Source of the DNA: a virus
Strand: one strand, 5' to 3'
DNA length: 33,636 nt
IMG/VR virus record: IMGVR_UViG_3300009502_000132
Coordinates: 1-33,636 of that record
In this document: positions 31,186 through 33,132 of the stretch, one piece after another
How positions within the stretch are numbered: position 1 is the stretch's first letter
Layout: each line of letters begins with the position of its first letter
The notes under the pieces: generated by a model
What the model was told of the DNA's origin: nothing
The model's database searches: none
Seen by the model: only the letters and a program-made list of their open reading frames with translations
Translations under genes and position numbers: made by a program

Positions 31186-32586
31186 ATGTCGAACGCAGAC
31201 CAAATGCAGTTGTCGTACATCGAGGAGGCGAGCTTCGGGACGCTGAAGTCGGGCTCTCCCCTGAAGGTGCTCCGCTTCCTGTCCGAATCCCTGCATCAGC
31301 AGACGTCCACGACGCAGAGTTCGGAGATCCGTTCCGACCGGCAGGTGACCGACGTCATCCGCAACAACATCAGCGCCGCCGGCGGCGTCAACTTCGAGCT
31401 GAGCCACGCGGCCTATGACGACCTGTTCAAGGCCTCGCTGATGTCGGATGCCGATTGGTCGCTGCCCAAGAACATCGCGGCGGCGACCCTCTCCGCGGCT
31501 GCGGCGGACAACAGCTTCAATGACAGCGGCGCCGGATTCCTCACGGCCGGTTTCGCCGCCGGCATGACGGTCCGCGTGTCGGGGTTCGCCACCGCCGCCA
31601 ACAACGGGCTCTTCCGGATCACGACGGCCGCGGCCGGCAAGCTAGTGGTGACGGGCGGGACGCTGTCGATCGAGGCGGCGGGCGCCGCGGTGACGATCGC
31701 CCGGCCGGCCCAGAAGGCCGCCACGACGATCGCCGCGTCCTCCGTGGACAACAGCATCACCGACAGCGGCAACGGGTTCGTCACCGCCGGCTTCACCGTC
31801 AACGAGTGGGTGAAGCTCACGGGCTTCGCCACGGCCGTCAACAACGACTACTTCAAGATCGTCAGCGTTGTCGCCGGCAAGATCGTACTGACGGGCGGGC
31901 TGCTCACTACGGAAGCCGCGGGGGCAACCGTCACGGTGGAGCAGGGCTCTTCGATCGTCAATGGCACGACGGCGCCCAGCTACAACTTCGAGAAGAAGTT
32001 CTCGGACCTGACGACGGAACTGTCGGTGCTCACGGGCCTGACGGCCGACCAGATGCAGCTCAGCGTCACTCCCGAGGCGATCGTCACCGGTAGCTTCAGC
32101 TTCGTCGGCAAGGACGAAACGTCCAAGACGGCCACGGCCGGCAGCGGCTACACGGCCGCACCGACCAATCCCGTGATGAACGCGGTGGACAACGTACTGT
32201 CGATCGTCGAGGGCGGCGCCGACTTCTCCGCCATCGGCTTCACGGCGCAGCTCCAGAACAATCTGCGGACGCGGATGCAGATCGGGGCCCTGGGCACGAT
32301 CAGCATCGGCAAGGGCAAGGTCGCCGTCTCCGGAACGCTGCGCGCGTACTACACCAGCAAGACGATCATGGACAAGTACCTGAACATGACCGCCAGCTCG
32401 CTGGGGATCGCCCTGAAGGATTCCAGCGGCAACGCTTACATCCTGGACCTGCCGCGGCTGAAGTACACCTCCGGGCAGCGGCTCGACGGCGGGCAGAACC
32501 AGGACATCATCGCGGACATGGCGTTCACGGCCTACATGCATTCGACCGAGACCGTCACGCTGCGGATGGTCCGCTTCTTCGCGTAA
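31186..32586 (+). CDS. Major tail tube protein with two copies of an inserted domain (466 aa)
   Basis: The N- and C-terminal parts (ADQMQLSYIEEASFGTLKSG at the start; TMQ-type end QDIIADMAFTAYMHSTETVT) form a tail tube fold of the long-tailed phage type. Between them lie two similar blocks of about 70 residues: one with NSFNDSGAGFLTAGFAAGMT and VTGGTLSIEAAGAAVTI, the other with NSITDSGNGFVTAGFTVNEW and LTGGLLTTEAAGATVTV. They are a clear tandem duplication, perhaps Ig-like surface domains decorating the tail. The ATG is three bases after the terminator stop. Length is greater than the usual 200-350 because of the insertion. Confidence 0.75.
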   Translation: MSNADQMQLSYIEEASFGTLKSGSPLKVLRFLSESLHQQTSTTQSSEIRSDRQVTDVIRNNISAAGGVNFELSHAAYDDLFKASLMSDADWSLPKNIAAATLSAAAADNSFNDSGAGFLTAGFAAGMTVRVSGFATAANNGLFRITTAAAGKLVVTGGTLSIEAAGAAVTIARPAQKAATTIAASSVDNSITDSGNGFVTAGFTVNEWVKLTGFATAVNNDYFKIVSVVAGKIVLTGGLLTTEAAGATVTVEQGSSIVNGTTAPSYNFEKKFSDLTTELSVLTGLTADQMQLSVTPEAIVTGSFSFVGKDETSKTATAGSGYTAAPTNPVMNAVDNVLSIVEGGADFSAIGFTAQLQNNLRTRMQIGALGTISIGKGKVAVSGTLRAYYTSKTIMDKYLNMTASSLGIALKDSSGNAYILDLPRLKYTSGQRLDGGQNQDIIADMAFTAYMHSTETVTLRMVRFFA

Positions 32587-32685
32587 ACCCAACAAGCCAC
32601 CGGGGCACAGCCTGGGCCTGACGGCGAAAGCAGCTGTGCGAGTAGCCGACAGGCCCACCCCGGCGGGAACAGAAAGGACAGCTTT
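32587..32685 (+). promoter_or_regulatory. Pseudoknotted leader of the tail-assembly chaperone gene
   Basis: The 99 bases before the GTG form an intricate fold. Outer stem: CCGGGG (32600-32605) with CCCCGG (32658-32663). Inner stem: TGGGCCTG (32613-32620) with CAGGCCCA (32650-32657), continuing after an A-A mismatch as CGGC (32622-32625) with GCCG (32645-32648). The loop of this inner stem contains GCTGTG (32633-32638), complementary to CACAGC (32606-32611) lying outside it, which makes an H-type pseudoknot. The ribosome binding site AAAGGA (32674-32679) follows and may pair with CTTT (32682-32685). No known riboswitch or ribozyme is recognised. Confidence 0.55.
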
Positions 32686-33132
32686 GTGAAGATTTCGAAG
32701 TTCGCCACGGATTCGACGATGGAGCAGGAAGGCGTCTGGGTGGACGCCGGCGGCCTGAAGCTCCGGATCGCCCGCATGGGCAACCCGAAGTACAACGAGT
32801 ACGCCCGCCAACTGGGCAAGCCCCACGCCATGCAGATCCGCCACGGCGCCGGCGATGCGGCCAAGGTGCTGGAGGACGTGATCAAGAAGGCCATGGCCCG
32901 CCACGTGCTGCTGGGCTGGGAGAACCTGGAAGACGACGCCGGCAGCCCGATCCCGTACAGCGAGGCCAAGGCCATGGAGCTTCTGACGGGCTTCCCAGAC
33001 TTCTACCGCATGGTCCTGGAGTTTGCCCAGGAAGCCGAGCACTTCAAGCGGCAGAGCCTGGAGGATGCAAAGGGAAACTCCGAAGCTGTCTCCAGTGGCA
33101 GCTCGACTGGGGACAGCACGAAAAGTTCCTGA
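32686..33132 (+). CDS. Tail assembly chaperone, short form (lambda G analogue, 148 aa)
   Basis: It starts with GTG downstream of AAAGGA. The product (VDAGGLKLRIARMGNPKYNE, then RHVLLGWENLEDDAGSPIPY) is like the first tail chaperone found between the tail tube and tape measure genes in long-tailed phages. It has the motif LLGWENLEDD seen in many such proteins. Its C-terminus after residue 130 is low-complexity Ser-rich (SSGSSTGDSTKSS), as expected beyond a frameshift site. Confidence 0.75.
   Translation: MKISKFATDSTMEQEGVWVDAGGLKLRIARMGNPKYNEYARQLGKPHAMQIRHGAGDAAKVLEDVIKKAMARHVLLGWENLEDDAGSPIPYSEAKAMELLTGFPDFYRMVLEFAQEAEHFKRQSLEDAKGNSEAVSSGSSTGDSTKSS

Follow-up and report, generated by a model that had tools for sequence, protein, structure and literature searches.

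It has long been asked how tailed phages, from genes that lie side by side, make a great many tail tube subunits but only few chaperones. Several described RNAs offer comparisons for an element at this junction. In IncI-type plasmids, the leader of repZ forms a hairpin whose loop pairs beside the Shine-Dalgarno (SD) sequence; this pairing activates translation, and an antisense RNA controls it. IBV-type frameshift pseudoknots have a first stem of 11-12 bp, a second of about 6 bp, a short first loop and a longer last loop. We know of no leader pseudoknot at a lambda-type G/GT locus. In T4, the leader of gene 32 folds into a pseudoknot 5' of the SD that is bound by the gene's own product (PMC535899). 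Here we analyse the junction of tail genes in a viral DNA of 33,636 nucleotides (IMG/VR record IMGVR_UViG_3300009502_000132; hereafter the window) and compare it with related phages.

The tail tube/chaperone junction of the window

A sequence-only reading of the window had described three helices with a single mismatch just before the start of the chaperone gene. We recovered all of them (Table 1): an outer stem, an inner stem (P1) and a pairing of the P1 loop with an upstream segment (U), all held in the 99-base gap from the tail tube stop (32584-32586) to the chaperone GTG (32686). P1 comprises 12 pairs over 13 positions, with an A-A mismatch, and its 3' end plus the next bases reads CCCACCCC, resembling the CACC that stands after P1 in relatives. 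The loop-U helix (7 bp) and the outer stem have one G in common. A second partner of the loop (D), missed in the earlier reading, sits between the SD and the GTG start. P1 is followed by CCCCGGCGGGAACAG, and the immediate T run of an intrinsic terminator is absent. The flanking genes proved to be what had been proposed, with phrog_290 and Phage_tube_2 matches to the tail tube protein upstream and a phrog_313 match to the tail chaperone downstream.

Table 1. Features around the junction, numbered from the first base of the window
Feature	Position	Strand	Basis or detail
Gene for the tail tube protein, 5' of the RNA	31186-32586	+	phrog_290 E 4e-55; Pfam PF18906 Phage_tube_2 E 6e-38
Outer stem, 5' strand, CCGGGG	32600-32605	+	sequence, RNA fold
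Upstream loop partner U, GCACAGC	32605-32611	+	pairs with loop over 7 bp; duplex energy -13.8 kcal/mol
Inner stem P1, 5' strand, UGGGCCUG-A-CGGC	32613-32625	+	
Loop, 19 nt; pairing core GCUGUGC at 32633-32639	32626-32644	+	loop-shuffle p 0.011
Inner stem P1, 3' strand, GCCG-A-CAGGCCCA	32645-32657	+	
Outer stem, 3' strand, CCCCGG	32658-32663	+	RNA fold
SD-like AAAGGA of the chaperone gene	32673-32678	+	sequence
Downstream loop partner D, ACAGCU	32678-32683	+	pairs with AGCUGU of the loop over 6 bp; duplex energy -10.7 kcal/mol
Tail assembly chaperone gene, G of G/GT type	32686-33132	+	phrog_313 E 6e-30; BLASTP to Pan1 chaperone E 9e-14
Slippery heptamer GGGAAAC, in frame near the chaperone ORF end, for -1 frameshift to GT	33072-33078	+	

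After the slippery heptamer, the -1 frame continues to about 33437, as in lambda G/GT. The tail tube protein carries an internal repeat (31470-31950; AADNSFND and VDNSITD stretches) that is present in single copy in aligned relatives. No Rfam family scored above its gathering threshold in the window or in the loci of 12 relatives. HDV-like and hammerhead ribozymes were considered from the order of the helices, and by inspection their core sequences were not seen.

The order of these helices had been held not to be expected by chance, a claim that survives only in a mild form. The minimum free energy is -43.8, compared with -32.7 on average for shuffled sequences (z -3.4), and the pairing of loop and flank gives p=0.011 when the loop is shuffled. 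A window-wide scan of the + strand found one hairpin of such kind where Markov resamples lead one to expect 0.2, and the D pairing is weak alone (flank-shuffle p 0.07). From its own sequence the element is suggestive and only moderately unusual, and it is the comparative evidence that carries the case.

Conservation and covariation in relatives

The tube/chaperone gap was gathered from about 45 other phages and viral contigs. In many of them the fold, its place, the RNA strand that pairs and the complementarity of U and D to the loop are conserved. The common architecture is a P1 stem of 10-14 bp whose loop has a complementary stretch in the flank. The main form occurs at about 37 distinct phage loci (our own count of the hand-collected set plus loci from an IMG/VR motif search), in the tail tube/tail assembly chaperone gap of roseophages, Caulobacter/Brevundimonas jumbo phages, Nanhaivirus and uncultivated phages; cultured carriers of the element include CcrKarma, DSS3P8, RcXuper and R5C. 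In the main form the loop is usually GUCGGG and CCCGAC stands just 5' of the chaperone SD, often with a second CCCGAC upstream. This upstream copy lies immediately 3' of the tube stop codon in Pan1, L061, L065 and L072 and is more distant from it in roseophages and Caulobacter phages; a U partner is absent in several family members.

Other lineages use other loop/partner pairs: GUCGAG/CUCGAC (L069), AUCGGG/CCCGAU (Karma, Gurke), GCGAGU/ACUCGC (MW202657), GGUGCUUU/AAAGCACC (L005, L034), GUGGUAGG/CCUACCAC (L080), GCCGACAC/GUGUCGGC (EBPR siphovirus 3), UCCCGU/ACGGGA (L068) and AUUCGCCUG/CAGGCGGAU (L073). Some of these single-lineage pairs are weak individually (p 0.05-0.15); automatic loop shuffles at 18 loci, not all of them independent, combine to a Fisher p of 1e-9. 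Many tightly spaced tube/chaperone pairs (Pseudomonas, Stenotrophomonas, Xp15, L003, L006-L008, L036) lack the RNA, which is therefore dispensable for tail assembly in general.

Several loci show further structure. In L068, the UCCCGU loop pairs with an ACGGGA in the loop of an upstream hairpin, likely a kissing-loop version. A short self-complementary hairpin of GCGC type (CTCTGCGCAGAG, GTAGTGCGCACTGC) regularly occurs between U and P1 in L065, L072, Pan1 and others. An extra strong terminator-like hairpin lies immediately 3' of the tube stop in roseophage and Caulobacter/Brevundimonas phage loci (L022, L050-L053, L076-L079, L084-L087). R5C-like loci (L018, L056, L058, L060, L063, L066) have 55-59 nt between P1 and D, a spacer in which a promoter-like TTGCA...TATCTT was seen by eye; a consensus scan of L060 made no call. 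If this promoter is real, two chaperone transcripts would be made, one without P1.

Covariation, which the sequence-only reading had named as a check on its pseudoknot, is present both in P1 and in the pseudoknot among 25 distinct main-form sequences. P1 is paired at 98.9% and the loop-D helix at 100%. Since the P1 arms and the partner strings were picked with pairing in view (the strings by eye), the pairing percentage is inflated, but the variety of the stems is not. Both sides change at 11 of the 12 P1 pairs and at two loop-D pairs. The loop-U helix has a both-side change at one pair, and in Karma and Gurke the loop AUCGGG is accompanied by CCCGAU in both U and D. In the main form, all shuffles score lower for covariation than the observed alignment, and slid registers collapse. 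A symmetric score served to choose P1, and within it G-U exceed A-C mismatches 16:1 (p=0.0003); selection thus acts on RNA of the coding strand rather than on the DNA or the opposite strand.

These patterns bear on two readings other than a base-paired leader. The CCCGAC/GTCGGG/CCCGAC segments are inverted repeats, and together with the promoter-like sequence between P1 and D in R5C-like loci they could suggest a DNA-level site for a transcription factor, packaging or recombination. We consider this highly improbable: the repeat copies are located in the loop of a long covarying stem, the mismatch ratio in P1 points to RNA, D is CCCUGAC in some members with pairing kept through G-U, and other lineages use unrelated sequences. 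It is unlikely that the RNA is bound by a phage protein, either the chaperone or the tail tube protein, that regulates its own synthesis. The RNA is attached to one gene throughout, as such a site would be, and gp32 of T4, which binds a pseudoknot 5' of the SD of its own gene, is a precedent (PMC535899). However, loop and flank sequences are swapped wholesale between lineages with complementarity kept, which speaks for base pairing and not for sequence reading; the same free variation leaves the ligand or phage-protein binding raised from the sequence alone without support. The tail assembly chaperone is not known to bind RNA.

MAFFT alignments A5, A7 and A8 gave poor models because loop lengths vary (R1 retained 3 pairs), and alignment A1 was too divergent for scanning. 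Model R2, built from trimmed arms, detects the main subfamily. It also picks up V10-like loci, though weakly, and at least one of its matches (L014) is likely false.

The window RNA is a divergent member of this family, or an analogue, outside the main subfamily. It lies in the chaperone leader after the tail tube gene, its P1 is GC-rich and of family length (10-14 bp) with a CACC-like 3' end, and its loop finds complements in both flanks (U 7 bp; D 6 bp, weak alone). Its loop is GCUGUGC, not part of a GUCGGG/CCCGAC pair, and R2 finds no match in the window. The kin found for it comprise the L002 contig, with an identical protein, and relatives below 50% protein identity. It could be argued that in the window alone a GC-rich hairpin pairs with its flanks by chance and has nothing to do with the conserved family, given the 0.2 such hairpins expected, a loop that neither reads GUCGGG nor matches R2, and close relatives that were not found. 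We judge this quite unlikely, since the sole such hairpin of the + strand falls exactly at the conserved junction and combines a family-length stem, a CACC-like stretch next to it and complements at both U and D. The pairings predicted for the window itself rest on the family pattern.

Attachment to the chaperone gene and geometry of the loop pairings

A search independent of gene context used the pattern GTCGGG-N(7-12)-CCCACC-N(3-6)-CCCGAC, which does not require the stem, on 2.9 million viral contigs of IMG/VR. It returned 58 loci, with a stem score of at least 27.5 in 24 and at most 13.5 in all others. The 24 high-stem loci and one V10-like locus with an interrupted stem form a set of 25 that includes several near-identical copies. 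A tail tube HMM match lies upstream in 22 of the 25 (of the others, L105 has a major tail protein of phrog_158 and one contig is truncated). A chaperone match lies downstream in 21, to which the gene of L117 was added by similarity to one of these. Among 385 cellular genomes of one class the pattern matched once, roughly as often as the reversed-pattern controls did. Genome scans for prophage relatives gave none with A2, and P0001 gave two uninformative loci.

In L133 and L094 a 65-aa gene lies between the tube gene and the RNA, and in L117 an HNH endonuclease (L117:5274-5864) and a 78-aa gene separate the two; in all three the RNA is still at the chaperone start. As the RNA keeps to this start despite intervening genes, the element belongs to the chaperone leader. 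This weighs against a 3'-end element of the tail tube message, in which P1 and the pseudoknot would act as an exonuclease barrier or weak terminator and leave more tube mRNA than downstream mRNA. Such a role would suit the tail tube gene immediately 5' of the RNA in most loci, the plain terminator-like hairpins in the equivalent gap of L004, L009, L083 and RcRudolph, the extra terminator-like hairpin in V10-like loci and the terminator-like score of P1 in L060. We nevertheless find it rather unlikely, as P1 is followed by CACC and not by a T run, and D beside the chaperone SD would be left without a role.

The 3' end of D is 2-21 nt upstream of the start codon in almost every member, and D adjoins the SD, which is overlapped by a second D copy in XM05 and by D in L073 and is itself unpaired in most members. 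Idealised A-form geometry with stems of 11-13 bp sets a minimum of 7 nt between P1 and D for a loop-D knot, with about 1 nt required on the opposite side; the observed distances are 5-15 nt, mostly 6-12 (short-gap members), and mostly 0-2 nt. By this model, loop-D pairing would be a good fit to an H-type knot with near minimal loops. U pairing with P1 intact would be hard in the main form, where 0-3 nt are present and 4 needed by the same geometry. The earlier picture of three helices fitting one another holds for the window in that each helix is present; with linkers of 0-1 nt, simultaneous formation of the full outer stem, full P1 and full U pairing is sterically doubtful in idealised A-form. 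Since the geometry disfavours U with an intact P1 or outer stem, U and D are best read as competitors for one loop, and the loop probably forms the crossing helix as an alternative to its pairing with D, not within a compact three-helix fold.

Proposed role and comparison with known systems

We think it somewhat probable, from sequence comparison, that the element acts in cis, as a leader RNA of the gene for the tail assembly chaperone, to limit chaperone translation. The strong hairpin P1 would present its loop, which would pair with D beside the chaperone SD to give an H-type pseudoknot; by abutting or covering the ribosome-binding site, the knot would limit initiation. U, in some phages immediately after the preceding stop codon, would compete for the loop and free the site. 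The sequence-only reading had suggested that a pseudoknot sets the chaperone level relative to the tube. The conserved place, the covariation, the tracking of the chaperone start and a downstream pairing that abuts or overlaps the ribosome-binding site all argue for this; that the D-paired state lowers translation, and that U and D form a switch, we infer. As the SD itself is unpaired in most members, the loop-D pairing may instead act as a standby site or in activation rather than as a block. More speculatively, and with low probability, these RNAs could be an undescribed, widespread phage class of two-state leaders. The single loop would then pair either at the tube stop or at the chaperone ribosome-binding site, and strong translation of the tube gene, by masking U, would push the loop onto the chaperone site and so keep the tube-to-chaperone ratio high.

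A conserved, covarying RNA at this junction, from Caulobacter jumbo phages to roseophages, is a concrete and testable candidate for control of the tube/chaperone ratio. Its architecture is conserved while its sequence is replaced, and sequence-based RNA searches miss base-paired elements of this sort. Searching the literature for pseudoknots in connection with tail genes brought up no description of it; the search covered few subscription journals or bioRxiv preprints, so novelty is provisional. The frameshift of the chaperone is mentioned in the phiCbK genome paper, where a search for hairpin and terminator brought up no such element.

The window locus resembles a lambda-type G/GT locus in its order of tube, G/GT with slippery GGGAAAC, and tape measure. 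IBV-type H pseudoknots share the proportions of stems and loops; the chaperone RNA is instead an intergenic leader, outside the reading frame and with no adjoining slippery site. In the repZ leader, too, translation is set by base pairing of a hairpin loop next to the SD, but repZ is plasmid-borne and the chaperone leader phage-borne. By analogy, the nearest case in function would be the autogenous translational operator in the T4/RB69 gene 32 leader, likewise a pseudoknot in phage mRNA that lies 5' of a single gene's SD. That pseudoknot is about 28 nt and is followed by UUAAA repeats coated by gp32 (PMC535899), whereas the chaperone leader has a stem of 11-14 bp, a pairing of loop to SD flank and an alternative upstream partner, and belongs to a different gene.
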